From NCBI GenBank assembly GCA_036375715.1, contig DASVBS010000025.1, forward strand, positions 1 through 64,000: a DNA stretch of 64,000 nucleotides, read 5' to 3'. Position numbers and translations under genes: made by a program. Positions 35,624 to 49,275 of the stretch are shown here, piece by piece (the first letter of the stretch is position 1; each line of letters opens with the position of its first letter). Under the pieces are notes generated by a model. The model ran no database searches, was not told where the DNA came from, and saw nothing but the letters and a program-made list of their open reading frames with translations. This stretch comes from Longimicrobiaceae bacterium. Lineage in GTDB: Bacteria; Gemmatimonadota; Gemmatimonadetes; Longimicrobiales; Longimicrobiaceae.

Positions 35624-36976
35624 ATGCGGCCATTGCAGAAGGTGCTGTGGACGAAGGGAGTCCTTCTCAACCCGCAGCACCTGCAGCTTCAGGACGGCTA
35701 CCTCGAGGCCCTGGTCGCCTTCCAGCTCGGCGTGCTTCGGCACGCTCCCTGGGGGTTCACGCGCCTGGAGATCGATCAGGAATCGCTGGCTGCAGGGTCG
35801 CTCGCCATCCGCTCGGCTTCGGGCCTCTTCCCGGACGGGCTGCCCTTCCTCATCCCCGAGTCCGACCAGCCGCCTCCGCCCAAGCCGTTCCAGGATCATT
35901 GGCGGCCCGACCAGCAGAGCATGCAGCTGTACCTGGCCGTCCCCGAGTTGCGGGAGGGCGCGCAGAACGTCGCCATGCGTTCGGAGGGACAGGGCACACG
36001 CTTCGTGGCGGAGGCCGTGTTGCGCAGGGACGAGAATACCGGCCTGGCAGAGAAGCCGCTCCAGCTCGCTCGCCGGAACCTGCAGCTGCTGGCGGAAGGG
36101 GAAGCATTGGAAGGCTTTTCGCTGCTGCCGGTGGCGAGAGTGATCCGCTCCGAGGCAGGCACGCCGCAGCTCGACCCGCACTACGTGCCGCCGGTTCTCG
36201 ACGTTGCGGCCAGCGGCTACCTGGTAACGCTGGCGCGGCGACTGTTGGAGATTCTCTCCGCCCGCAGCAGCACGCTGGCGGGAACCCGTCGGCAGCGGAA
36301 CCGCGGCCTGGCCGATTTTGGCTCGTCCGACGTCGCCAACTTCTGGCTGCTCTACACCATCAATCGCCACCTGCCGGTCGTGCGTCACCTCTCCGAGAGT
36401 CGCCGCACGCACCCGGAGTCCCTCTTTCGCGAGCTGCTCGCCCTGGGCGGAGCGCTGACCACCTTTTCGCAACGCTATCATCCGCGCGACCTTCCCGGAT
36501 ACGATCACGACGACCTGGGCGGGTGCTTCGGGCGACTCGACGCAATCATCCGGGAGCTGCTCGAGACGGTGGTGCCGATCCACCACGTGGTGATTCCGCT
36601 GCGCTCCACTGGAACCCATGTCTACGCGGCCGCACTCGACGAGGAGCGGCTCTTCGCGGGCACCCAGCTCTTCCTAGGGATTCGCTGCGAAGCCTCTGCG
36701 GAGGAGGTGGCGCGCCGCGCCCCGCAGCTGGTGAAGCTGAGCTCGGGAGACCAGATCGAGCGGCTGATCCGCCACGCCCTCCCGGGTCTCCCCATGCGAT
36801 ACCTGGCGACGCCCCCGGGAAGCGTGCCGATCAAGCTCGACTACCAGTATTTCCAGCTCGAGCGCACCGGGAGCGACTGGGACGCGATCCGCACGGCGCG
36901 CAATCTGGCCGCGTACGTTCCGGCGGACTTCCCGGAGGCACAGCTGGAGCTGGTCGTCCTGCTGCCTTCCGGCTGA
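35624..36976 (+). CDS. tssK: Type VI secretion baseplate protein TssK, copy 1
   Basis: A 450-residue adaptor that joins the baseplate to the TssL-TssM membrane complex. The N-terminal shell domain starts KVLWTKGVLLNPQHLQLQDGYLEALVAFQLGVL, the family signature in modified form, followed by GLFPDGLPFLIPE. The middle helical part has NFWLLYTINRHLPVVRHL and RELLALGGALTTFSQRYHPRDLPGYDHDDLGGCF, and the C-terminal head contains PGLPMRYLATPPGSVPIKLDYQYFQLER. It opens the right arm with a GGAG box 8 nt before the ATG. A second tssK follows 2.3 kb later, so the two may serve different partners. Its stop lies inside the palindrome at 36964-36996. Confidence 0.95.
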   Translation: MRPLQKVLWTKGVLLNPQHLQLQDGYLEALVAFQLGVLRHAPWGFTRLEIDQESLAAGSLAIRSASGLFPDGLPFLIPESDQPPPPKPFQDHWRPDQQSMQLYLAVPELREGAQNVAMRSEGQGTRFVAEAVLRRDENTGLAEKPLQLARRNLQLLAEGEALEGFSLLPVARVIRSEAGTPQLDPHYVPPVLDVAASGYLVTLARRLLEILSARSSTLAGTRRQRNRGLADFGSSDVANFWLLYTINRHLPVVRHLSESRRTHPESLFRELLALGGALTTFSQRYHPRDLPGYDHDDLGGCFGRLDAIIRELLETVVPIHHVVIPLRSTGTHVYAAALDEERLFAGTQLFLGIRCEASAEEVARRAPQLVKLSSGDQIERLIRHALPGLPMRYLATPPGSVPIKLDYQYFQLERTGSDWDAIRTARNLAAYVPADFPEAQLELVVLLPSG

Positions 36977-36996
36977 GCGCGGCTCAGCCGGAAGGC
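36964..36996. terminator. Perfect 15-bp palindrome overlapping both convergent stops
   Basis: GCCTTCCGGCTGAGC (36964-36978) is the exact complement of GCTCAGCCGGAAGGC (36982-36996) with a 3-nt loop GCG. The stem contains the TGA of tssK copy 1 on the plus strand and the TGA of the motif-repeat gene on the minus strand, so one structure can end both transcripts. The C-terminal residues of both proteins (PSG) are consequently identical. Confidence 0.75.
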
Positions 36997-39035
36997 GCGG
37001 CAGTGGGGGCCTCCGCCGCCGGCAGGGAGTCGGGTAGCGTCTCCCCCGTATTCGGGGCGAGGGCGGTGCGGAGCACGAGGTAGAGTACGAGCGCAATCGC
37101 CAGGATCGCGACGAGCACCAGGCCGACGATGATCCCCGGATGCGTTCCCTTGCGAGATGAATCCGGGGCGAGAGCGGCCCCCGCTGCCGGTTGTGTCGGA
37201 GGCGCCGGGGGCGGAGAGCTGACAGGCGGGGGTGCCACCGGCGGCACAGGCGTCTGCGCCGAGATGATGCGGGTATATTCGCCCGCTGGCGGAGGCGGCG
37301 GTGGGGCGGGCGGCGCCATCTCGGCAGGGAGCGGCGGCAGCTCGGGATCGACCGGGTGGCGTGGCGGGGCCGCGCTCTGCGCCGACGGAGCGGGCGATGG
37401 CGGTGGCGGCGGGGGAGGAGGCGCACTGCCGTGGAGGCGCTCGCGGTAGCTGTCGTCGCCCAGGGGCGAAGGCGGCCAGGCCGGTGGCTGAGCGGCACCT
37501 CCCGCGGGGTGGGTCAGCGGGGGGTGCGCGGGTGGCGCGGGGGGCGTGGGTGTTCCGCTCAGCTTCTGGAACATGCGGGTGAACTCCCCCTGCCCCGAGG
37601 GCGCCTGCGACGCCGCGCCCGGATGCGGGGACGACGCCGGGGGCGCCGGCGGAGGGGTGGTCGGCGGTCCGGCGACCGGGGGGCGCGCGGGCCCCGCCTC
37701 CACAGGTGGCGGCGAGCCGGCTACACGCGGCGGCTCCGCGGGGAGGGACGGGGTGACGGGCGGCGATACCGTCGGGGTGGGTGTTGCCCCGGGTGTGGCA
37801 GGGGGCACCTCCGCCGACGCAGCGGGGGGTGTCGCCGCGCGGAAGAGCCGGGTGAACTCGCCAGGACCTTCCCTCGCGGCGGACTCCGCGGCCGAGGCGC
37901 CCCGCTGCGGAGGCGCGGCCGCTTCAGACGCCTCGGCAGTAGGGGCAGGGGCATCGGGCTGGGACACCGGTGTGCTGGCCCCCGGAGCGTGGGGTGGCGC
38001 CCCGTAGCTGGCGGGTGGGGCACCCAGGCTGGTGGGCGACGCATCCGCCGCGGAGTCTGGCGGGGTCGCGGCGCGGAAGAGCCGCGTGAACTCACCCGGT
38101 CCCTCCTGCCCGCCGGCCTCCGCGGTCGGGGTGCCTCGCTCTGGAGGCGTGGACGCGGAGGGCGCGCCCACAGGAGGGACGGGGGTCGTGGGTTGCGACC
38201 CCTGGGTAGAGGGCGTTGCACCCGGGGTGGTAGGCACTGACCCCGATGTGATGGGCGTTTCCCCTGGTGTGGCGGGTGGCGCCGCCGCAGCGGGGTCGGG
38301 CGGCGTTGCCGCACGGAAGAGTCGGGTGAACTCGCCGGGGCCTTCCTGCGCAGGGTCGTCCGACGCCGGAGAAGCATGCCCAACAGCCGTAGCCGGGGGC
38401 GCCGAATCGGGGTCTCGCGCCACCGGTGGTGCACCGGTCGACGGCGACTGCATGTTCGAGGGCGCCTCCGTCGGGGAGGCCGGCGTGGTCGGGGAGACTG
38501 GATCCGCCGGTCGCAAGGGCTGCGGGGTCGCCCCGGCCGCAGGACCGGACGGCGGTGGGGCCGCCGCAGCGCTGGACGGGGGCACCTGGGTGGGCGGAAG
38601 GTCGAAGTCGATCGACGCGGCGGCCGGCTCGACATTCCGCTCCCGGCTCCAGCTCCCCGCGCCCTCGTCCGCCAGGGCGTCCAGGGGAGGGGCCACGGCG
38701 CGGCCGAAGAGCCGCTCGAACTCGTCCGTCGCCGGCGGCGGTGCCGGCGCGGCGGCCGGCCCCAGCCACTCGTCGAAGGTGCGGAAGTCCATCAGGAAGC
38801 GGGTCACCACCACCGCTCTCCCGTCGACATCCAGCACCTCCAGGATTCGCTCGCGGCGATCGACATCGATCTCGCCGAGCCGCGTAAGGATGCCACCCCG
38901 CCAGGCCGCGAGTGAGGCGTCGAGAAAATGCACCATCACGATCGCTCCGGTCCTGCTGCGCGCGAGGTAGGTTTGCGACCCCTCGACGACCGGTCGGATC
39001 AGGGGATAGCGCGATTCGAGCTCGGTGCGGTTCAT
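36984..39035 (-). CDS. Proline-rich membrane protein with vestigial kinase N-lobe and EFTRLF-type repeats
   Basis: A 683-residue protein not recognised as a named T6SS component. Residues 1-92 resemble the N-lobe of a Ser/Thr kinase without the C-lobe: GAIVMVHFL looks like the VAIK strand, and RILEVLDVDGRAVVVTRFLMDFRTFDEWL like the hinge. The next 540 residues are Pro/Ala-rich and carry a repeated short motif: EFERLF at 105-110, EFTRLF at 235-240, 315-320 and 393-398, EFTRMF at 484-489 and EYTRII at 586-591. A single transmembrane helix spans about 634-657, with a short tail. In five copies a Thr is followed by R and then hydrophobics, a plausible phosphorylation and FHA-binding site. It is embedded, in reverse orientation, between two tssK genes. 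Confidence 0.9.
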   Translation of the reverse strand: MNRTELESRYPLIRPVVEGSQTYLARSRTGAIVMVHFLDASLAAWRGGILTRLGEIDVDRRERILEVLDVDGRAVVVTRFLMDFRTFDEWLGPAAAPAPPPATDEFERLFGRAVAPPLDALADEGAGSWSRERNVEPAAASIDFDLPPTQVPPSSAAAAPPPSGPAAGATPQPLRPADPVSPTTPASPTEAPSNMQSPSTGAPPVARDPDSAPPATAVGHASPASDDPAQEGPGEFTRLFRAATPPDPAAAAPPATPGETPITSGSVPTTPGATPSTQGSQPTTPVPPVGAPSASTPPERGTPTAEAGGQEGPGEFTRLFRAATPPDSAADASPTSLGAPPASYGAPPHAPGASTPVSQPDAPAPTAEASEAAAPPQRGASAAESAAREGPGEFTRLFRAATPPAASAEVPPATPGATPTPTVSPPVTPSLPAEPPRVAGSPPPVEAGPARPPVAGPPTTPPPAPPASSPHPGAASQAPSGQGEFTRMFQKLSGTPTPPAPPAHPPLTHPAGGAAQPPAWPPSPLGDDSYRERLHGSAPPPPPPPPSPAPSAQSAAPPRHPVDPELPPLPAEMAPPAPPPPPPAGEYTRIISAQTPVPPVAPPPVSSPPPAPPTQPAAGAALAPDSSRKGTHPGIIVGLVLVAILAIALVLYLVLRTALAPNTGETLPDSLPAAEAPTAAPSG
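37831..38350 (-). repeat. Three in-gene DNA repeats encoding the EFTRLF motif
   Basis: Near-identical blocks of about 40 nt lie around 37831-37870, 38065-38106 and 38305-38350, each coding for the GPGEFTRLFRAATPP segment. A shorter relative occurs at about 37561-37600. Their DNA similarity points to internal duplication and possible copy-number change by recombination. Confidence 0.6.
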
Positions 39036-39250
39036 GGCGGGGCGGAAAACGAGCGGAGAGGCTGTTCGGTGGCGGCAAGCTTCACTGGCCCATGGCTGGC
39101 CTCGCCCGTATCATTCGGGTGGGCTGCCCATCCTTGCAACTCTACACCTGGCCTAACCACGGCGCAAACGACTGTCGTGTATCTGGAGACTGTCCGCGAC
39201 CTTCCACGCTCGTCGCTATCCGGCCCATCCTCGAACCCGATCGTCCTGTC

Positions 39251-40576
39251 GTGAGCTCGCTCGGCCGTGTCGTCTGGCATGAAGGCATGCACCTGTCGCA
39301 GCACCACTTCCAGGCGCAGAGCCGATATTTCGAGGAGCTCATCCGCTTCGTCGCCACCTCGCTGGCGCCGGAGACCTGGGGTCTGGCGGGCTACGAGCTC
39401 GACGCCGAGGCGCTCCGGAACGACACCGTTGCGCTGGTACACGCACGCGGCCTGATGCCGGACGGCCTCCCGTTCCAGTTTCCGGAAGATCCGCTTCCGA
39501 GCCCGCTCCCGATTCGCGAGCTCTTCTCCCCCACGCGGGACAGCCATCTCGTGCTGCTGGCCATCCCCCCGTTCGTGGAGGGGCGGCCGAATCTCTCCTC
39601 GGGGGAGTCGGAAACGGCCGGAGTACGTTTCGCCTCGGCGACCAAGCTCGCGGTGGATGAGGCGGGCGGCGTCGACACGCGGGAAGTGCTGATCGCCCGC
39701 AAGAACTTCCGCCTTCTCCTCGACGCCGAGGTATCCGAGGATCTCGTCACCCTCCCGCTAGCGCGCGTGCGGCGAGACGGCTCCGGTCATTTCGTCTACG
39801 ATCAGGCCTTCATTCCGCCGCTGCTCCGGATCGGGGGGAGCTCGAGCCTGCTCTCGGCGCTCGATTCCCTGATGGAGAAGCTCTCCGCCCGCGCAGCATC
39901 GCTCGCGGAGGCGAGCGGATCGCCGGAGACGGAGGTGGCCGACCACTGGCTGGCCCACACGCTCCACGAAAGCCTCGGAACGCTCGGCCACTATCGGCGC
40001 TTGCGGCAGGCGCATCCGGCCGCACTCTTTGCTGAGCTAGCACGGCTGGCGGGAGCACTCTGCACCTTCTCCATGCACGCCCATCCGCGCGACCTGCCGA
40101 CCTACGATCACGCGCGGCCGTGGGAGTCGTTCGGAGACCTGATGCGCCGCATCGTTGAGCTGCTGGACGTGGTAGCTCCCTCCAACACCATTCGCATCCC
40201 GGTGCGGCCGGTAGCCGAGGCGTTCTACGCGGCTACTGTTACGGATCCGCGGGCGTTCGGCAACTGCGACTGGTACCTCGCGGTGCGGTCCCGCCTGGAT
40301 CCGGCAGAGCTGGCCGGTGCTGTTCCCCGGCTGGTGAACATCTGCTCGGCACGGCACATCGACCGTCTGGTGCGCGAGGCAATTCCCGGATTGATCCCGA
40401 AGCACGTACTCTCACCTCCACCCGGGGCTGCGCCGAGGGCAGGCACGGAGTACTTCTCCATCCCCCGCACCGGGCCCTGCTGGACCTCCATCGTGGACAC
40501 CCGGGAGGTGGGGCTGTACGTGCCCGCAGCGCTCGCGGAACCTGAGTTGGAGATTATCGTGACCTTACATGTTTGA
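39251..40576 (+). CDS. tssK: Type VI secretion baseplate protein TssK, copy 2
   Basis: A 441-residue TssK paralogue. From GTG 39251 the N-terminus reads SSLGRVVWHEGMHLSQHHFQAQSRYFEELI, which fits the classical TssK start (VVWxEGMxLxxxHFQ) better than copy 1. GLMPDGLPFQFPED, PRDLPTYDHARPWESFGDLMRRIVELLDVV and PGLIPKHVLSPPPGAAPRAGTEYFSIPR complete the match. The frame is open upstream to 38912 but that part overlaps the divergent motif-repeat gene. It leads directly into tssL and tssM, the usual partners of TssK, so this is likely the membrane-complex adaptor, with copy 1 possibly specialised. Confidence 0.93.
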   Translation: MSSLGRVVWHEGMHLSQHHFQAQSRYFEELIRFVATSLAPETWGLAGYELDAEALRNDTVALVHARGLMPDGLPFQFPEDPLPSPLPIRELFSPTRDSHLVLLAIPPFVEGRPNLSSGESETAGVRFASATKLAVDEAGGVDTREVLIARKNFRLLLDAEVSEDLVTLPLARVRRDGSGHFVYDQAFIPPLLRIGGSSSLLSALDSLMEKLSARAASLAEASGSPETEVADHWLAHTLHESLGTLGHYRRLRQAHPAALFAELARLAGALCTFSMHAHPRDLPTYDHARPWESFGDLMRRIVELLDVVAPSNTIRIPVRPVAEAFYAATVTDPRAFGNCDWYLAVRSRLDPAELAGAVPRLVNICSARHIDRLVREAIPGLIPKHVLSPPPGAAPRAGTEYFSIPRTGPCWTSIVDTREVGLYVPAALAEPELEIIVTLHV

Positions 40577-40658
40577 GGGACGGGGTGGTCCGGCGCCCGT
40601 CGCCCCGGTATATTGACGCGGCGACGCCCCCCTCCTCTTTTCCGCCTTCCCAGACTCT

Positions 40659-41402
40659 ATGTCGACCGTCGCCCCACCGACCCTCCAGCATCGATCGACG
40701 CCTCCCGCGACGACCCGCCGCGGCGCGCTTGCGCTTGCGCTGCAAGAGCCCTTGACGGCGGGTGCCCGGCTGCGCGCGAACAGGCAGGTGGCCTCCGACG
40801 GTGAGGCCTTCCGCACCCAGATCAAGCACCTGATTGCGCGCGCCGACCAGGAGGCTCGTGCCCAGGGTTACGATCCCGCCGATGTGAAGCTGGCGGTCTA
40901 CGCTTATGTGGCGTTTCTCGACGAGTCGGTCCTCAACTCCGGCCAACCGATGTTCGCCAACTGGGCGCGTCAGCCGCTCCAGGAAGAGCTGTTCGGCGAT
41001 CATCGCGGCGGCGAGCTCTTCTTCCACTACCTCGATGAGCTGCTCGCCCGCCCCGATTCGGAAGACCTCGCGGACCTGCTCGAGGTGTTTCAGCTCTGCA
41101 TGCTGCTCGGATTCCGCGGCCGCTATGGCGCCGTCGACGATGGCGGACTCCGCACACGGTTGCAGGCAGTTCATCAGAAGATCGAGAGAATTCGCGGCCG
41201 TCCGGGCGCGCTCTCGCCGATCGCCGCGCTGCCGCAGGACGACCGCCTGCCCGAGCTACGGGATCCATGGCTGAGACGGCTACTGCTCTTCGTCGGGGCG
41301 CTGCTGCTGATCACCGTCGTGCTCTACGTCGTGTTCCGGCTCTCCCTCGGAGGGCAGGTCAACGATCTCCGCGACCTGGCAACGGAGCTGCTCCGACAGT
41401 GA
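40659..41402 (+). CDS. tssL: Type VI secretion inner-membrane protein TssL (DotU family)
   Basis: A 247-residue tail-anchored protein. The cytoplasmic domain has the DotU signatures FRTQIKHLIARADQEARAQGYDPADVKLAVYAYVAFLDESVLNS, WARQPLQEELFGDHRGGELFF and DLLEVFQLCMLLGFRGRYG. One transmembrane helix lies at about residues 207-227 (LLLFVGALLLITVVLYVVF), leaving a short periplasmic tail. No peptidoglycan-binding OmpA-like extension is present, so cell-wall anchoring must come from another protein. Starts 82 nt after tssK copy 2 and is followed by tssM. Confidence 0.95.
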   Translation: MSTVAPPTLQHRSTPPATTRRGALALALQEPLTAGARLRANRQVASDGEAFRTQIKHLIARADQEARAQGYDPADVKLAVYAYVAFLDESVLNSGQPMFANWARQPLQEELFGDHRGGELFFHYLDELLARPDSEDLADLLEVFQLCMLLGFRGRYGAVDDGGLRTRLQAVHQKIERIRGRPGALSPIAALPQDDRLPELRDPWLRRLLLFVGALLLITVVLYVVFRLSLGGQVNDLRDLATELLRQ

Positions 41403-41442
41403 CCTCCCTGACACCGACCTCTGCTGCCCTGTCGGCGACGAC

Positions 41443-44400
41443 ATGAAGACTCGGAAGGCCTGGATTGCCGCGCTGGTGACGCTGGCGGGTTTTCTCTTGC
41501 TGGCCGTGGTTCTCGACTGGCTCCTCCCCATAAACGGCGCCGATCGCGTCCTCCTCTGGGTCGGGATGCTGCTACTGGGCGGAATCGCCGCTTTCCTGCT
41601 CTACCTGCAGCTCGCACCACGGACGGCAAAGAAGAAGGGGCAGAGCGACGTCGAGCTGCTCCTGGCCGCCGCCCGCGAGCGTCTGAAGAAGGCGGGGATC
41701 TCAAAGGGTAAACCGGGACGTCTCCCGGTCACGCTGGTGATCGGCCCGACCGGCTGCGCCAAGACGACCTCGGTTCTCCAATCGGGGCTTGGAGCCGAGT
41801 TGCTCGCGGGAGAGACCTCCGGCCCAGCCGGAGTCGCACCCACCGAAGCCGTCAACATCTGGTACGCTCGGGGTGGCCTGATCGTGGAGGCGGGTGGGAA
41901 GGTGCCGGGCGATGCGGAACGCTGGCGTAGGCTGCTGCAGGGCCTGCGACCGGCACGGCTGGCCGCGGCACTCGGCAGAGGCAAACAGCCCCCGCGCGTG
42001 GCGGTCGCCTGCGTGAGCTGTGACCTCCTCCAGACATCCGGTAGTGGAGCGGCGCCGTCGGCCACCCAGCTGCGAGATGCGCTCGCCGAGGTCGCGCGCC
42101 AGTGGGGCGTTCGACTCCCGGTCTACGCGCTTTTCACCAAGGCCGACCGCATCCCCCACTTCGAGGAGTATGTGCGTGGGATGACGCGGGAGGAGACCCA
42201 GGAGCTCCTGGGGGCTACTCTGCCGTTAGCGGAGGTGACCCCTGGCGACTACGCCGACCATCAGGCGCACCGGCTCCGCACCGCCTTCGGCAACATCTTC
42301 GGCTACCTGGCGGCGCGACGCCTCGAGCTGCTTCCCCGTGAGCAGCGCGAGGCGGATCGTGGGGGCGCCTACGAGTTTCCACGGGAGATTCGCAAGCTCA
42401 CCGAGGCCGCGTCGCTGTTCCTGACCGAGCTGTGCCGGCCCAGCCAGCTCGGCATGAACCCCTTTCTCCGGGGGTTCTACTTCGCGGGCGTTCGACCGGT
42501 GATCGTCAGCGACACGCCAGCCGCCTCTCCCCAGCCGCAGCAGCGGATTTCTCTGGAGGCGACGGGCGTATTCGGCATCCCGTCGCTCACGGCGCCGCAG
42601 CCGGCGGCACGACCCTCCGGGGGCCGTCGTGTGCCCGACTGGGTCTTCCTGCGCCGGCTCTTCCCCGAGGTGATCCTCGCGGATGAGCGCGCCCACGCGC
42701 TCACCGCAGGCGGCCGTCGGGTGGACCTGCTGCGCCGCAGCCTGCTCGCCGCCGCGGCGGTGCTGCTGCTGGTGCTGTCCACCGGGTTCACGGTGTCGTA
42801 CGTGAACAACCGGGCGCTGCTGGCCCGGGGTCGCGATGCGCTGGAGGCGGTCCGACCGCTGGCGGCCGCGGTCGGCGAGGCTCCCCCGGAGCCCTCGCTG
42901 GTGCGCCTCGACTCCCTGCGCGCCACGGTCGATCGACTCAGCGACCACCTGCGAGGTAGGCCGCCTCTCCGCCTCCGCTGGGGGCTGTACACGGGCGACA
43001 AGGCGCGGTTGCCGCTGCGCCAGGTCTATTTTGACCGCTTCACCGAGCTGCTCTGGGGAACCACCCGTGGCGATCTGCTCGCCACACTCCAGTCGCTGCC
43101 GGATCAGCCGCAGGCAACCGAAGACTACTCCAGGATCTACGAGGCGCTGCGCGCATACCTGGTCACGACCAGTCATCCGCAGGAGAGCACTCCCGAGATC
43201 CTCACGCCGGTCCTGCTCCGCGAGTGGAGGTTCGGCGACAGCCTCGACCCGGCTCGTCGCGAGCTGACGAGCCGCCAGTTCGACTTCTTCGCCCGCGAGT
43301 TGCCCCTCGGACACCCGTTGCCGGCGGAGCCGAGCGAGCCAGTGGTGATCGCGGCGCGCGAGTTCCTGGCGAAGTTCACCGGGGTGGAGCCGTTCTACCG
43401 GGCGCTCCTCTCCGAAGCAGCCCGCGCTGGAGAGCCGATCCGCTTCGCGGAGCTGTATCCCCAGGCGAGCGCGGTGGTCCAGAGCTCTCAGGCGGTGCCG
43501 GCCGAGTTCACGCAAGCGGGTTGGGCACGGGTGGATTCGATCCTCGCCGACCTCGATCGGCTACTCACCCGCGAGGATTGGGTCCTGGGCGAGCGCGCCG
43601 CCATCGCCCCCTCCGACCGCGAGCGGCTGGCGGCCGACCTGCGCACTCGCTACGTGACCGACTATGCGGACGCCTGGCAGCAGTTCCTGGAATCCGCTTC
43701 CGTGGCCGGTTTCTCCGGGCCTGCTGATGCAGCGCGGAAGCTGGATCTGCTCGCGAGCAACCAGTCGCCGCTCCTGCAGCTGATCGCCCTGGCCTCTCGC
43801 CACACCTCGGTGGACAGTACAGTGTTGCGCCAGCTCTTCCAGCCGGTCTACGCTGTCATTCCGCCCGGTGAGTCAGACAGCTACATCAACGACGCGAACG
43901 CGCCCTATATGGGCGGACTCGTTTCGCTCCAGTCGGCCATGGCACAGGTCGCCGACGCGACTGGACCGGACCGCACGGAGGCGCTGGCTCAGGCGCAGAT
44001 GAGCGTCCAGCAGCTCGACCTGAGGGTGAGCGAGCTGACCCAGGGCTTCAGGACGGAAGGGAGGTCCGTGCTGGTGGGGAACCAGGTGCAGCGACTGCTG
44101 GAGTCACCGGTCGTTGCCGCCCGAGGGCTCGTGCGCGGGCTCCCGACCGCGCAGGTGAACGCGGCGGGGGCAAGCTTCTGTGCCCCCTTCCGCGCCCTCG
44201 AAGCCAGGTATCCGTTCGACGAGCGGGCGGTAGAGCCAGCCTCCATCGACGACCTCAGTGCACTACTCGGGCGCCCCAACAGCCGTCTGTGGAGCTTCTA
44301 CGAGGAGCAGTTGAGTCAGCTCCTTATACCGCAGGGGAACCAATATGCCGCGCCTCCTGCCGCCGAGCCCCGCCCGACGGAGGCCTTCACCGCGTTCTTC

Positions 44401-44844
44401 AACCGGGCTGCCCGGATCTCCGAGGCTCTTTTCCCGGACGGGGCCGAATCGCCCACCGTGCGCTTCGCGCTCCAGGTCTCGACCTCGAACGACCTCCCTG
44501 AGGTGCGCGTCACGATCGACGGGCAGACGCATGCGTTCACGCGAACCATGCCGGCCGCGCACACTTACGTCTGGGATGGAGCCCGCGCCCGCACCGTACG
44601 CGTGACCAAGGTGGTGGACGGGGTGGAGACCACGCTGCTGGAAGGCAGCGAGGGGCCGTGGGCGCTGCTTCGGCTCCTGCACCTTGCGAGCTGGGAGCAG
44701 ACGGGTGCCCAGCAGTACCGCCTGCGCTGGCTTCTCGCCGAAGCTCCCGGCGAGTTGACCGCCACGCTGACCTTCGCGTCGCGTGTGCCGATCTTCGCGC
44801 CCGGCCAGCTCCGGCTGGGCTGCGTATCTCAGATTCTCCGCTGA
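41443..44844 (+). CDS. tssM: Type VI secretion inner-membrane protein TssM (IcmF family)
   Basis: An 1133-residue membrane-complex core. Two transmembrane helices lie near residues 8-29 and 35-58, a third near 432-452, followed by a large periplasmic part. The cytoplasmic nucleotide-binding region carries GPTGCAKTT at 101-109, a Walker A with Ala in place of the last Gly, so ATP or GTP binding may be weakened. IcmF-family text is clear in PVYALFTKADRIPHFEEYVRGMTREE and in the C-terminal domain VRFALQVSTSNDLPEVRVTIDGQ...WALLRLLHLASWEQTG. The stop overlaps the next start by one base (TGATG), linking it to the lipoprotein gene. Confidence 0.97.
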   Translation: MKTRKAWIAALVTLAGFLLLAVVLDWLLPINGADRVLLWVGMLLLGGIAAFLLYLQLAPRTAKKKGQSDVELLLAAARERLKKAGISKGKPGRLPVTLVIGPTGCAKTTSVLQSGLGAELLAGETSGPAGVAPTEAVNIWYARGGLIVEAGGKVPGDAERWRRLLQGLRPARLAAALGRGKQPPRVAVACVSCDLLQTSGSGAAPSATQLRDALAEVARQWGVRLPVYALFTKADRIPHFEEYVRGMTREETQELLGATLPLAEVTPGDYADHQAHRLRTAFGNIFGYLAARRLELLPREQREADRGGAYEFPREIRKLTEAASLFLTELCRPSQLGMNPFLRGFYFAGVRPVIVSDTPAASPQPQQRISLEATGVFGIPSLTAPQPAARPSGGRRVPDWVFLRRLFPEVILADERAHALTAGGRRVDLLRRSLLAAAAVLLLVLSTGFTVSYVNNRALLARGRDALEAVRPLAAAVGEAPPEPSLVRLDSLRATVDRLSDHLRGRPPLRLRWGLYTGDKARLPLRQVYFDRFTELLWGTTRGDLLATLQSLPDQPQATEDYSRIYEALRAYLVTTSHPQESTPEILTPVLLREWRFGDSLDPARRELTSRQFDFFARELPLGHPLPAEPSEPVVIAAREFLAKFTGVEPFYRALLSEAARAGEPIRFAELYPQASAVVQSSQAVPAEFTQAGWARVDSILADLDRLLTREDWVLGERAAIAPSDRERLAADLRTRYVTDYADAWQQFLESASVAGFSGPADAARKLDLLASNQSPLLQLIALASRHTSVDSTVLRQLFQPVYAVIPPGESDSYINDANAPYMGGLVSLQSAMAQVADATGPDRTEALAQAQMSVQQLDLRVSELTQGFRTEGRSVLVGNQVQRLLESPVVAARGLVRGLPTAQVNAAGASFCAPFRALEARYPFDERAVEPASIDDLSALLGRPNSRLWSFYEEQLSQLLIPQGNQYAAPPAAEPRPTEAFTAFFNRAARISEALFPDGAESPTVRFALQVSTSNDLPEVRVTIDGQTHAFTRTMPAAHTYVWDGARARTVRVTKVVDGVETTLLEGSEGPWALLRLLHLASWEQTGAQQYRLRWLLAEAPGELTATLTFASRVPIFAPGQLRLGCVSQILR

Positions 44845-45443
44845 TGCGATCGCTCACTGCCTCCATGGCCAGCTACAAGCTTCGCTCGCTCCTCCTTCTG
44901 CTCGGCATCGCCCTCGTCCTGCCGGCCTGCCGGCGCAGTGGAGGAACGCAAGCTCCCGCTGGCCCGCCACCGCCCGCGCCGCTCGCGCCTACCGCCCTGC
45001 TCTACTACGACAACAGCGGCGGCATCCAGGATTCTCTGCGGGTGGTGATCCGCGATGCGGAGGAATTCGAGCGCACCTGGCGCCGTGCCACCTCGACCCA
45101 GTCCTCGCCCCCGCCGATGCCGACGGTTGCGTTCGACCGCGCAATGGTGCTGCTGGTCGCGGCCGGGCGCATGAAGCCGGACGATGTGGTCCGCGTCGAT
45201 AGCGTGGGCATCCACGACGAGGTGACCGCGACCGGCGAGCGCGAGCGGGTGATGCAGGTCATCGTCCGCACCGTGCGAGGCTGCGGCGGCTTCAGCAGCG
45301 ACGCATATCCGCTGGCGCTGGTGCAGGTCGCGCGCTTCGAGGGGCCGGTGCGATTCACCGAGCGGAGCGAACGGGCAGCCGGTTGCGCGGGAGCGGCCCT
45401 CATCGAGAGCCGGCCGCTATACGCATCGAAGCATTCTGAATGA
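44844..45443 (+). CDS. PrcB-like lipoprotein, candidate TssJ substitute
   Basis: A 199-residue lipoprotein: signal peptide with lipobox LVLPAC places the lipidated Cys at 29. The mature domain (about 50-199) is beta-rich and resembles the PrcB C-terminal domain, with FDRAMVLLVAAGRMKPDDVVRVDSVGI followed by VIVRTVRGCGGFSSDAYPLALVQVARFEGPVRFTE. TssJ, the usual outer-membrane lipoprotein that binds TssM, is missing in this locus, and this gene starts inside the tssM stop (TGATG), the place where tssJ-like partners are often found. A TssJ-like role is inference; it could also be an unrelated envelope factor. It overlaps the kinase start by 4 nt. Confidence 0.85.
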   Translation: MRSLTASMASYKLRSLLLLLGIALVLPACRRSGGTQAPAGPPPPAPLAPTALLYYDNSGGIQDSLRVVIRDAEEFERTWRRATSTQSSPPPMPTVAFDRAMVLLVAAGRMKPDDVVRVDSVGIHDEVTATGERERVMQVIVRTVRGCGGFSSDAYPLALVQVARFEGPVRFTERSERAAGCAGAALIESRPLYASKHSE

Positions 45444-47119
45444 CCACCCATCACGAACAGACCGGCCCGCAGGGCCCCGAGTTGCCGCCTACGCTGGCCA
45501 ACGGCGCGGAGACCGACGCCTCGACTTCGGGCGACCTGGTAGGCCGCGTGCTCGCCGGCCGCTATCGCATCCTGCGAAAGCTCGGCGAAGGGGCCATGGG
45601 CGCCGTGTACCTGGGCGAGCACCTGAAGATTGGTCGAAAGGACGCGATCAAGGTCCTCCGCGATCAGCTCGCCAGCGACCCCGATGCGATCGCCCGCTTC
45701 GTCCGCGGGACCCGCAACGTGTCGATGATCCGGCACCCGAACATCTGCACGATCTACGACTACAGCGACACGGCGGATGGTATCCAGTTCGTGGCGATGG
45801 AGTTCGTGCCGGGCGAGACGCTGCGCGACCTGCTGAACCGCGAGACGAGGCTGCCCGTCGATACCGCGGTAAAGATCGCCATCCAGGTGGCCGAGGCGCT
45901 CGACGCCGCTCACCAGGTGGGGATCGTCCACCGAGACCTCAAGCCCGCCAACATCATGGTCGTGCAGGGGCGGCAGGGCCTGGAGGTCAAGGTGGTCGAC
46001 TTCGACATCGCGAAGGGTTCGCAGGAGGGGGAGGGCGAAGAGGTCACGCGAATGGGATTCGTGGTGGGCACGCCCGAGTACATGAGCCCCGAGCAACTCA
46101 TCGGCGATCGTCTCGACGGACGGAGCGACGTCTACTCGCTGGCGCTGGTACTCTACCGCATGCTGACAGGCACGCTTCCGTTCGCCGCTCAGGACACGCA
46201 GGACCTGATGGTCAAGCGCCTGACCGAAGAGCCGATGAGCCTCGCCGGCGGCCTTCCCGGGGCGTCCTTTCCGCTCGCCCTCGAGATGGCGATTCGCCGC
46301 GCGCTGCAGCGGAAGCCGGAAGACCGCCAGCGAACGGCCGCCGAGTTCGCGCAGGAGGTCGCTGCCGCGGTTTCCCCGGTCGTCAGGGATCGGCGTTCGG
46401 CGCCGCGCGGCGACACAAGTGCCTCGACGCGCGAGACGGAGCGCTCACGCACCGATTCATCGGAGACTGACGGGCGGCGGCGCTTGGTCCTGCTGTGGGG
46501 CGGAGGGGCCACCGCGGCGGTGGCGCTGGTGGCCCTCGGCCTCTTCGCCTTCGGAGGGGAGGGAGGAGAGGGAGGCGAGGAGCTCGCGACTGACACGCCG
46601 TCTCCGCAGACGCCGATGGTCGAATACAGCGATCCGGTGTCGACAGCCGAGGACGAAGCCTCCGGCAGTCCGGCCGAACCGGAAGCCGATACCGCCGCAC
46701 TCGGCTCTGCTCCAAGTGCTCAAGGCACCCGGCAGACTACCTCCGTGGCGGCAGAGCCGGCGGGAAATCCACCGGAAGAGGCGAGGGCTGAGGGCGCGCC
46801 GGCGGAACCGTCGACCGCTGTATCTGCCTCGCCCTCGCAGGACGAGCTCCTCTCCATGCTGGAGCGAACGATGGACCCCGGCTCGAGCGGACCCGCGCTC
46901 CGGGAGATTCACCAGCGCGCGGCCGATGCCTGGAACGACCGGACGATCCCGAGTGAACATCGGGCGCTGGCGGCGTACGTCGCTAGCAACAGCCTGATCG
47001 CTCTGGGCGACACGACGCAGGCCGTGACCTGGCTGCAGCGCGCCGTCGATCTTCGCCCTGACTACGACCCGTACCGGACCGAGCTGAATCTCTACCAGCA
47101 GCTCCTCCGCGGATACTGA
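45440..47119 (+). CDS. Transmembrane Ser/Thr protein kinase (PpkA-like)
   Basis: A 559-residue kinase. The catalytic domain (about 42-310) has the glycine loop LGEGAMGAVY at 48-57, Lys71, the HRDLKPANI loop with Asp166, and GTPEYMSPE at 210-218. The metal motif is DFD (187-189) instead of DFG. A transmembrane helix at about 349-372 is followed by an Ala/Pro/Glu-rich spacer and a helical TPR-like C-terminus (about 470-559). In other type VI systems PpkA phosphorylates an FHA protein to trigger assembly; an FHA protein is encoded immediately downstream. Starts with an ATGA overlap on the lipoprotein gene. No PppA-type phosphatase was seen. Confidence 0.96.
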   Translation: MTTHHEQTGPQGPELPPTLANGAETDASTSGDLVGRVLAGRYRILRKLGEGAMGAVYLGEHLKIGRKDAIKVLRDQLASDPDAIARFVRGTRNVSMIRHPNICTIYDYSDTADGIQFVAMEFVPGETLRDLLNRETRLPVDTAVKIAIQVAEALDAAHQVGIVHRDLKPANIMVVQGRQGLEVKVVDFDIAKGSQEGEGEEVTRMGFVVGTPEYMSPEQLIGDRLDGRSDVYSLALVLYRMLTGTLPFAAQDTQDLMVKRLTEEPMSLAGGLPGASFPLALEMAIRRALQRKPEDRQRTAAEFAQEVAAAVSPVVRDRRSAPRGDTSASTRETERSRTDSSETDGRRRLVLLWGGGATAAVALVALGLFAFGGEGGEGGEELATDTPSPQTPMVEYSDPVSTAEDEASGSPAEPEADTAALGSAPSAQGTRQTTSVAAEPAGNPPEEARAEGAPAEPSTAVSASPSQDELLSMLERTMDPGSSGPALREIHQRAADAWNDRTIPSEHRALAAYVASNSLIALGDTTQAVTWLQRAVDLRPDYDPYRTELNLYQQLLRGY

Positions 47120-47161
47120 CCTCCACCGCCCCCATTTCCCGGCACGATTCGGAGACTCCCT

Positions 47162-48535
47162 TTGGACGCACAGCTCGGAATCCTCACGGGAGCGCGCGCG
47201 GGCGAGACGCTGAGCTTCTCGCAGCGAGCGATCTCCGTAGGACGGCACCCCGAGGTCGATCTTCGCTTCGACCCCGCTTCCGACCGGGCAGTGTCAGCTC
47301 GGCATGCATTGCTCTTCTACGAAGACGGCAACTGGTACATTCGCGACCTCGGCAGCCGGAACGGGACCTTCGTCAACGACCGGCCGGTGAGGGAGGATCT
47401 CCGTCTGAGGAACGGGGATCGGATCACCTTCGGCGTGCAGGGCCCCACGGTACAGTTCGCCACCGATCGCGCCTCCTTGACCGGGTTCGCCGCGGCGAGT
47501 CCTGCGGCAAGGGACTCCCGCGGCCCCTCAACCGTGGAGCGTCTGCGAATCGAGCTGGTTCGCCGGACCCGCCGCTATCGCGCAGCGGCCATCGGGCTCG
47601 TGGTGGTGGCCGCCGGAGTCGTGGGAACGATTCTCTTCCTTGGCGATCGTCAGCGCGCCGCCTGGGATCGAGAGCGCACGGCGATGCGACTGCAGATCGA
47701 CAGCCTGCACTCCGCGGGCAGCCGGGCGATCGAGAGTTTGGAGCAGCAGTTGAGCGCGCTCACCAGCTCCCTGCGCGCTTCGGAATTGCGCATCCAGGAG
47801 CTCCAGGAGGCGATCGCGGCCGCTGAGTCGCGCGGCAATATCGGCGAAGCCGAGGGGCTGCGGCGTGAGCTGCTCGCCGAGAGCACCGGATTGCGCAACC
47901 GGCAGGTCGCGGCGGGCCTCGACTTCGAGCTCATCCAGGATCGCAACCGGCACGCGGTTGCTCGCATCTTCGTCGAGTACGAGAGCGGAGAGGTCGCAAC
48001 TGCCACGGCCTTCGCCATCCGCCCGGACGCCACCCTGCTGACCAGCCGTCATGTCATGGTCGACGCCCAGGGTGTGCTGCGGCCGCGCCGCATCGCCGTC
48101 CAGTTCTCGGATTCCGAGCAGGTGTGGCCAGCCCGGCTGCTGGCCGTGTCCGACGCGGATCTGGCCCTGGTCAAGGTGGACAACATTCTGGGGCGAGTCC
48201 CGGTCGTTCACGGTCTCAACCTGCGCGGCGATACGCTGCCACCCGGTAGCCCGGTGGCCATGATCGGATTCCCGCACGGAGGCGCCGTGGCGGATCCGGA
48301 TCTCACGGTGGGCTACGCCCGACCTCTGCTCTCGGCCGGGGTGATACAGGAGACCTCGCCGACCCGGTTCAGGGTGCAGGGCTACGGGGCCGTAGGGGCG
48401 AGTGGCAGTCCGGTGCTGGACGCCAACGGCGACGTGGTGGCGATCGTCTTTGGAGGGCGGGCCGAGCCCGATGGGCATTCTGTTTACGCCGTGCCGGCGG
48501 CGGCAGCAGAGCGCTTGCTCACAGAAGTGTTTTGA
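47162..48535 (+). CDS. FHA domain - transmembrane - trypsin-like serine protease fusion
   Basis: A 457-residue protein with three parts. Residues about 1-100 are a cytoplasmic FHA domain with the conserved SVGRHPEVDLRF, SARHALL and DLGSRNGTFVN motifs that bind phosphothreonine. A transmembrane helix follows at about 138-160, then a coiled coil at about 165-230. Residues about 255-457 are a trypsin/HtrA-like protease with complete triad: His297 (LTSRHVM), Asp333 (SDADLALV) and Ser414 (GASGSPV). The protease should face the periplasm. TTG 47162 is the only start that keeps the FHA strand 1, and it has a GGAG box upstream. The kinase gene ends 42 nt upstream, so a phospho-signal passed across the inner membrane to the protease is a natural model. 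Confidence 0.93.
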   Translation: MDAQLGILTGARAGETLSFSQRAISVGRHPEVDLRFDPASDRAVSARHALLFYEDGNWYIRDLGSRNGTFVNDRPVREDLRLRNGDRITFGVQGPTVQFATDRASLTGFAAASPAARDSRGPSTVERLRIELVRRTRRYRAAAIGLVVVAAGVVGTILFLGDRQRAAWDRERTAMRLQIDSLHSAGSRAIESLEQQLSALTSSLRASELRIQELQEAIAAAESRGNIGEAEGLRRELLAESTGLRNRQVAAGLDFELIQDRNRHAVARIFVEYESGEVATATAFAIRPDATLLTSRHVMVDAQGVLRPRRIAVQFSDSEQVWPARLLAVSDADLALVKVDNILGRVPVVHGLNLRGDTLPPGSPVAMIGFPHGGAVADPDLTVGYARPLLSAGVIQETSPTRFRVQGYGAVGASGSPVLDANGDVVAIVFGGRAEPDGHSVYAVPAAAAERLLTEVF

Positions 48536-48567: not shown

Positions 48568-49275
48568 TCAACTTCCAGTCAGCTGGCGAAGCGCCTCCCT
48601 CGCCTCGGTCATCTCGGGGAACCGCTCGGCAATCTGCCGATACAGCTCGATGGCCTGCTCCTGCCGGCCTCCGTCCTGGAAGACCTGCGCGCGGGAGAAC
48701 ATGGTCACCGCCTCGGGTGGGATCTCGCGCGAGCGGCGCTCCTGGACCAGGGCGACCTCGAGCGGAGGTAGGTCGATTCCTTCGGTGATCTCATTCGCGA
48801 AGTCGACCAGCATCTCGTAGAGATTCTCCTTCCGGTTCCGCAGCTCCACCGGCTGCATCACCTCCCCCGTCTCCACGTTGATGATCCGTCCGTCGAGCCG
48901 GAAATTCCCATACAGGTCCATGAAGACGCCGGTTACGGCATAGCGGGCGCCGACCAGGCGACCGATGCGAGCCGCCGTGCCGGGGTCCACCTGCCCGGTG
49001 CGCACCAGCCCCTGCTCTTCGAGGATGGCTCTCAGCTGGCTCCGCTCCACCACACGCAGGTTTGTGTTCTGCGCCAGCTCCGTCAGCATCAGCTGCTGGA
49101 TACCCACCTCGAGTGGCGCGAGGTCCTCCCGATCCGGACCGAATGATCCGCCATTCGTAAACGGAAAGACCGCCACGCCGGGCCGCGTGTCCGTCGCTTG
49201 AGCGAACAGCTCCACGGTGGCCAGGGGCAACAGCAGAAGCGCAAGAACAACCCGACGAGTCCAGTTGCAATGCAT
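48568..49275 (-). CDS. CsgG-like exported protein
   Basis: A 235-residue exported protein with a signal peptide (RRVVLALLLLPLATVELFAQ). Residues about 30-160 match the CsgG/curli-assembly domain: RPGVAVFPFTNGGSFGPDREDLAPLEVGIQQLMLTEL, LRVVERSQLRAILEEQGL and GRLVGARYAVTGVFMDLYGNFRLDGRIINVETGE. Such domains form outer-membrane-associated oligomers or periplasmic assemblies. There is no lipobox Cys, unlike true CsgG. The C-terminal 60 residues are TPR-like (AVTMFSRAQVFQDGGRQEQAIELYRQIAERFPE). The ribosome-binding site GGGGAGG is strong. It may work with the adjacent divergent outer-membrane protein. Confidence 0.85.
   Translation of the reverse strand: MHCNWTRRVVLALLLLPLATVELFAQATDTRPGVAVFPFTNGGSFGPDREDLAPLEVGIQQLMLTELAQNTNLRVVERSQLRAILEEQGLVRTGQVDPGTAARIGRLVGARYAVTGVFMDLYGNFRLDGRIINVETGEVMQPVELRNRKENLYEMLVDFANEITEGIDLPPLEVALVQERRSREIPPEAVTMFSRAQVFQDGGRQEQAIELYRQIAERFPEMTEAREALRQLTGS

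Follow-up and report, generated by a model that had tools for sequence, protein, structure and literature searches.

The stretch of DNA analysed here, referred to as the window, comprises 64,000 nucleotides of contig DASVBS010000025.1 from a Longimicrobiaceae bacterium (Gemmatimonadota) and contains a complete type VI secretion system (T6SS) locus. We found that a gene lying antisense between tssK1 and tssK2 of this locus encodes a family-defining accessory of a dual-TssK T6SS, here termed the motif protein. Structure models and sequence profiles indicate that its N-terminus is a truncated pseudokinase consisting of a kinase N-lobe, followed by a linker with repeated Thr-containing motifs and a C-terminal transmembrane helix. 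The sequence comparisons suggest that the motif protein could be a tail-anchored multivalent scaffold, docked to the T6SS kinase via its pseudokinase N-lobe, controlled by Thr phosphorylation and gathering T6SS parts, a reading that we hold with slightly less than even confidence. The family appears to be undescribed, as a preliminary description of the locus had proposed: the motif protein had no family match in Pfam, NCBIfam or PADLOC, and a literature search found no mention of the motif letters.

The half-kinase domain and its distribution

AlphaFold models of the N-terminal domain were built from a Gemmatimonadota-weighted and an Acidobacteriota-weighted alignment, which have a few sequences in common, and reached a predicted local distance difference test score (pLDDT) of 88 and 91.5, respectively. 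Both models adopted a beta-beta-beta-alphaC-beta-beta-alpha arrangement, matching the beta1-beta2-beta3-alphaC-beta4-beta5-hinge fold of a kinase N-lobe. When they were compared with PDB using Foldseek, the top 50 matches were all protein kinases for both models (best E 1.7e-3 and 1.2e-3; probability 0.99-1.00). Along the entire N-lobe, the N-lobe profile matched MARK kinases (MARK2) in PDB (E=0.0056); it also matched some designed repeat proteins, probably as an effect of composition. Furthermore, the profile matched kinases encoded in the same T6SS loci with E down to 2e-7, as well as kinase-like open reading frames in about 100 acidobacterial genomes, among which kinase identity was checked only for those in T6SS loci. 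Two or three consecutive kinases directly follow TssM in three Acidobacteriota loci (L280, L282 and L285), and the N-lobes of these kinases were the closest kinase relatives found of the pseudokinase domain.

In place of the catalytic Lys of the VAIK motif, the family has a His that is invariant or nearly so, and the C-lobe with HRD and DFG is absent, a Pro-rich linker coming after the hinge. The protein is therefore best read as an N-lobe-only pseudokinase and not as a kinase. To our knowledge, N-lobe-only pseudokinases are rare.

The motif protein family was found in Gemmatimonadota, Acidobacteriota and one Myxococcales metagenome-assembled genome (MAG). Strong TssK matches were obtained in 46 of 395 Gemmatimonadota genomes, and 44 of these, but none of the other genomes, carried the N-lobe domain; the TssK-positive exceptions were G018, where the motif gene is present and the domain was undetected in its open reading frame, and G349, which is fragmented. 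At least three strong domain matches were obtained in 396 Acidobacteriota genomes, a lower bound because true kinases crowded the prefilter. Loci across Gemmatimonadota share the order tssK1, motif gene (antisense), tssK2, tssL, tssM, which recurs in most Acidobacteriota loci and in the Myxococcales MAG. In addition, exactly two TssK genes were present in each of 13 further genomes, even where the genes were dispersed, and two were found in nearly every tested genome with a motif protein. One genome (G412) was tried as a T6SS-free control and rejected, its T6SS genes being dispersed yet present. The two TssK genes of the window are divergent from each other. Another genome, G328, carries two copies of the motif protein (L089 and L090), the second of which lies near a kinase, TssH and VgrG and not between tssK genes.

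The threonine motif array

Three GEFTRLF repeats, one GEFTRMF, one GEYTRII and a C-terminal transmembrane helix had been listed in the preliminary description, and all are present. It had overlooked a further copy, DEFERLF, as well as the kinase N-lobe at the N-terminus, the two TssK genes that constantly accompany the motif gene and the fact that some copies lack Thr. The transmembrane helix is probably a tail anchor that leaves the N-terminus in the cytoplasm, and the tail is Pro-rich and probably disordered. Across the family, the motif takes the form [FY]-T-x-[LMI]-F and is present in one to about 15 copies per protein: Gemmatimonadaceae have 1-5, and Acidobacteriota reach about 15. Relatives also share, in a constant order, a juxtamembrane form of the motif, S/G-E-[FY]-T-R-[IVM]-I, and a second short motif, SYLDRL.

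The motif is virtually confined to this gene family. A degenerate DNA pattern of it had four matches in the organism's own 4.37 Mb genome, all in the motif gene, and in 21 related genomes 68 of 70 matches fell within the motif gene family, while the reversed-pattern control gave 0 in both cases. Matches in PAS and CheR proteins (L035, L039-L041) and in single genes of other phyla were set aside, as they came without the N-lobe and without a T6SS. Within the window protein, three copies share the 16-residue block EGPGEFTRLFRAATPP without a single residue difference, whereas 7, 9 or 11 of the 16 codons differ, all synonymously, and the linkers flanking and separating the copies are only about 54-60% identical, which shows that the motif copies are under purifying selection. 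Recent tandem duplication was rejected as the source of the identical motifs, given the synonymous codon differences.

We then defined the motif with the Thr position left free and collected 456 copies from 106 family members, in which some loci are present twice so that the rows are not all independent. The position was occupied by Thr in 413 copies, Glu in 10, Ala in 6, Met in 6, Ser in 5, Asn in 5, Asp in 4 and a few others including Leu, and by Val or Ile in none of the 456. Among distinct motif 12-mers, Thr was found in 276 of 311. Most relatives have thus kept the Thr, the loss of which would have spoken against the phosphothreonine relay proposed in the preliminary description.

The linked kinase, the FHA-protease and the window locus

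The motif protein, the transmembrane Ser/Thr kinase and the FHA-transmembrane-protease protein are all present and intact in the window. The family alignment of the kinase retains the Lys, HRD and DFD positions, so that its catalytic residues are intact. Its activation loop, EVTRMG at 46040-46057, belongs to a form, EVTR[LM]G, that resembles the motif EFTR[LM]F; this is weak evidence because T-R-x-G is common among Hanks kinases. A Hanks-type kinase was linked to the motif gene in 34 of 43 loci examined, and this count, like that for FHA below, is a lower bound because several contigs end too early.

The likeness to an activation loop, together with the combination of an N-lobe pseudokinase and variable numbers of near-identical sites, would also fit a decoy, in which a degenerate kinase copy with many Thr sites buffers the kinase and thereby imposes a threshold or a delay on T6SS firing without needing a reader. 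We consider this very improbable, as the Phe at +3 and the flanks are conserved more strongly than a mere substrate requires and the Thr is retained in loci lacking a linked kinase.

The FHA domain of the neighbouring protein (E=1e-21) has the usual Arg, Ser and Asn residues, and after its transmembrane segment a Trypsin_2 domain (E=3e-16) has His, Asp and Ser where the triad is expected. Its linkage was much narrower than that of the kinase, at 11 of 43 loci, nearly all from the window's family and one sister family. There, the FHA-protease is adjacent wherever the contig is long enough, with the exception of G220, where neither kinase nor FHA was found, and in the 10 loci of these two families where the FHA gene was found it adjoins the kinase. 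In Gemmatimonadaceae it is missing from the locus except in G171, whose FHA gene lies about 15 kb away; two genomes of this family (G223 and G263) have unlinked full-length homologues. No linked FHA was found in any Acidobacteriota or Myxococcales locus read, though the motif is kept there, and full-length homologues were absent from the Acidobacteriota genomes tested.

These data bear on the relay as first proposed, in which the locus kinase phosphorylates the array and the FHA domain of the FHA-protease captures it, so that either secretion or the periplasmic protease is gated. The retained Thr and the co-occurrence with a kinase hold up, while co-occurrence with FHA does not, since homologues in Gemmatimonadaceae, Acidobacteriota and Myxococcales mostly lie outside any FHA context. 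The clustering of three intact genes in the window, the adjacency of kinase and FHA-protease in the two families, the canonical FHA residues and the Phe at +3 of the motif are all consistent with the relay, but in the Acidobacteriota loci conservation of the motif is equal or higher and the array is longer, so that only a lineage-specific use is possible and the full relay is improbable. A universal FHA reader of the motif was rejected, FHA linkage being confined to the window's family, its sister family and isolated cases. Because this linkage is found chiefly in the organism's own order, FHA capture may operate here without being the ancestral job of the motif: judged from gene distribution, an ancestral role is unlikely, and capture by the neighbouring FHA-protease as a lineage-specific addition in this organism is plausible.

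The minus-strand T6SS genes of the window encode VgrG, TssH, G, F, E, A, ImpE/TagJ, Hcp, TssC and TssB. After this block come TssK1, the motif protein, TssK2, TssL, TssM, a small lipoprotein, the transmembrane Ser/Thr kinase and the FHA-transmembrane-trypsin protein (Table 1). The small lipoprotein gene (44841-45443, plus strand), between TssM and the kinase, is kept in many loci including that of the Myxococcales MAG (L291); its product belongs to no NCBIfam family and matches Pfam only below threshold. Since the window locus has no recognisable TssJ, this lipoprotein is a candidate TssJ counterpart. A CsgG-like/TPR protein (48568-49275, minus strand) adjoins the FHA-protease, and several Gemmatimonadaceae loci have CsgG-like relatives close to the T6SS kinase. 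No PppA-type phosphatase was recognised among the scanned window proteins, for which no PP2C-directed search was made.

Table 1. Positions of the motif protein, its elements and neighbouring genes in the window
Feature	Position	Strand	Evidence or detail
TssK1 baseplate subunit	35624..36976	+	TIGR03353 410 bits
Motif protein, 683 aa: N-lobe pseudokinase domain, Pro/Ala-rich linker with [FY]TxPhiF repeats, C-terminal transmembrane helix	36984..39035	-	
Kinase N-lobe domain, aa 1-91, without C-lobe	38763..39035	-	VMVH replaces VAIK (invariant His, 38939-38925)
DEFERLF, motif copy with Glu for Thr	38706..38726	-	
GEFTRLF copy 1	38316..38336	-	
GEFTRLF copy 2	38076..38096	-	
GEFTRLF copy 3	37842..37862	-	
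GEFTRMF copy	37569..37589	-	
SYRERL, member of the second conserved short motif (SYLDRL) common to many relatives	37434..37451	-	sequence comparison
GEYTRII, juxtamembrane motif form (relatives: SEYTRVIS / SDFTRMIS)	37263..37283	-	
C-terminal transmembrane helix, aa 635-653	37077..37133	-	hydropathy 3.2
TssK2, second TssK	39236..40576	+	PF05936 E=3e-114; TIGR03353 341 bits
TssL (DotU)	40659..41402	+	
TssM (IcmF)	41443..44844	+	
Transmembrane Hanks-type Ser/Thr kinase	45440..47119	+	PF00069 E=3.2e-45
FHA, transmembrane, coiled coil, trypsin-like protease protein	47162..48535	+	FHA 47231-47434; protease 48002-48445

The scaffold model and known systems

The ETTS motif of GarA/OdhI probably continues as ETTSVFRA, with Phe at +3 and then Arg-Ala, like EFTRLFRA. 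This N-terminal motif (PMC12321487) is phosphorylated by a bacterial Hanks kinase (PknB/PknG) and, as a conserved Thr motif tied to an FHA domain, resembles the window array, but it is one site in cis with FHA on a cytosolic metabolic regulator, with no T6SS and no repeats. In the papers cited here, control of T6SS by Thr phosphorylation concerns Proteobacteria and one or two phosphosites (PMC3953482, PMC12607579): PpkA phosphorylates TssL at Thr14, which is then bound by Fha (PMC3953482), and condensates of PpkA and Fha recruit T6SS parts (PMC12607579). This pathway likewise has a membrane Hanks-type kinase and an FHA protein at the T6SS locus, whereas it is known to act on single Thr sites, in TssL or Fha, without a repeated-motif pseudokinase scaffold, and its TagH/Fha is not fused to a transmembrane segment and trypsin domain, unlike the window FHA protein (P0003), which scored 45.2 bits with the TagH model TIGR03354, below the cut-off of 120. 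The array itself is closest in design to MDC1, whose pTQxF motifs are read by the FHA domain of RNF8 (PMC11884936). Both have a disordered region with repeated Thr motifs and Phe at +3 (in several copies in the window), and the MDC1 array is phosphorylated and read multivalently by FHA (PMC11884936); MDC1/RNF8 is, however, eukaryotic, with +1 Gln fixed, ATM as the kinase and unrelated proteins, while the window family has no fixed +1 residue and is not always linked to FHA. A pseudokinase scaffold is not described for either PpkA-Fha/TssL or MDC1/RNF8 in these papers. Kinase-FHA control of T6SS is thus already known, and the motif protein is the new component.

Phospho-regulation of the array is favoured by the exchange of Thr, often for acidic or polar residues and never for Val or Ile, by the linked kinase and by the likeness to the activation loop. 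Several observations weigh against the scaffold reading. About 9% of motif copies lack the Thr, often as [DN]E[FY]EKLF; FHA domains normally refuse Glu or Asp, so an FHA domain should be unable to read these copies. In a dispersed locus (L288, from G412) 8 of 15 copies are without Thr, mostly EFN[QRK]LF, unlike in other relatives. In G220, G405, G408, G411, G413 and some others, the sequence read contained no kinase, yet the Thr is retained there, and FHA linkage is lineage-restricted. The proposed partnership with TssK is drawn from gene order alone. Finally, hhalign of the N-lobe against eight locus kinases, which form a small alignment, was not significant, so that the kinase relation rests on structure and on the larger, Acidobacteriota-weighted profile.

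The copies without Thr, the loci without a kinase and the constant TssK neighbours make phospho-independent docking the main rival. In this case [FY]-T-x-Phi-F would be a short linear motif that uses its Phe and hydrophobic residues to bind a groove on a T6SS core part, either the trimers of TssK1/TssK2 or some other component of the baseplate. The Thr would then be structural and the motif protein would be a membrane tether catching baseplates by avidity. Docking would explain why the constant neighbours are two TssK genes and not FHA, why the Phe and hydrophobic positions persist in DEFEKLF, DDFMKLF and EFNKLF, and why Thr is retained at some loci without a linked kinase. A structural, beta-branched Thr should nevertheless tolerate Val or Ile, which never occur; moreover, most loci have a linked kinase, the motif protein itself bears a kinase-derived domain, and no core protein of these loci has a motif suggesting mimicry. 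We therefore regard docking as rather unlikely, though clearly ahead of the full FHA relay.

Under the scaffold model, the motif protein would sit in the inner membrane with its tail in the cytoplasm, and its N-lobe, which may have originated from the locus kinase, would pair with that kinase. Related bacterial kinases dimerise by back-to-back N-lobe pairing. The locus kinase would then phosphorylate the Thr residues of the array, which could become a multivalent docking or phase-separating platform collecting T6SS parts at the membrane complex, the most plausible cargo being TssK baseplate units or TssK partners. In the organism's order, the FHA-transmembrane-protease protein may have been added as a phosphothreonine reader, coupling the platform to the periplasmic protease. 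In its broadest form, held a shade more tentatively than the scaffold itself, the proposal is that an N-lobe-only pseudokinase with a membrane-anchored phospho-motif tail defines a dual-TssK T6SS class in Gemmatimonadota, Acidobacteriota and a myxobacterium, and may control assembly by kinase-driven clustering of baseplates at the membrane.

Collectively, these data indicate that a dedicated component is a regular part of a T6SS class spanning phyla, combining as many as about 15 Thr motifs with a dead half-kinase and lying beside a doubled TssK. The half-kinase makes it simple to test whether N-lobe pairing can control Hanks kinases. If the model is true, the motif protein would represent multivalent phospho-scaffolding in a bacterial nanomachine and would allow a direct test of condensate-style T6SS assembly, and its gene would be a clean marker for the dual-TssK T6SS class.

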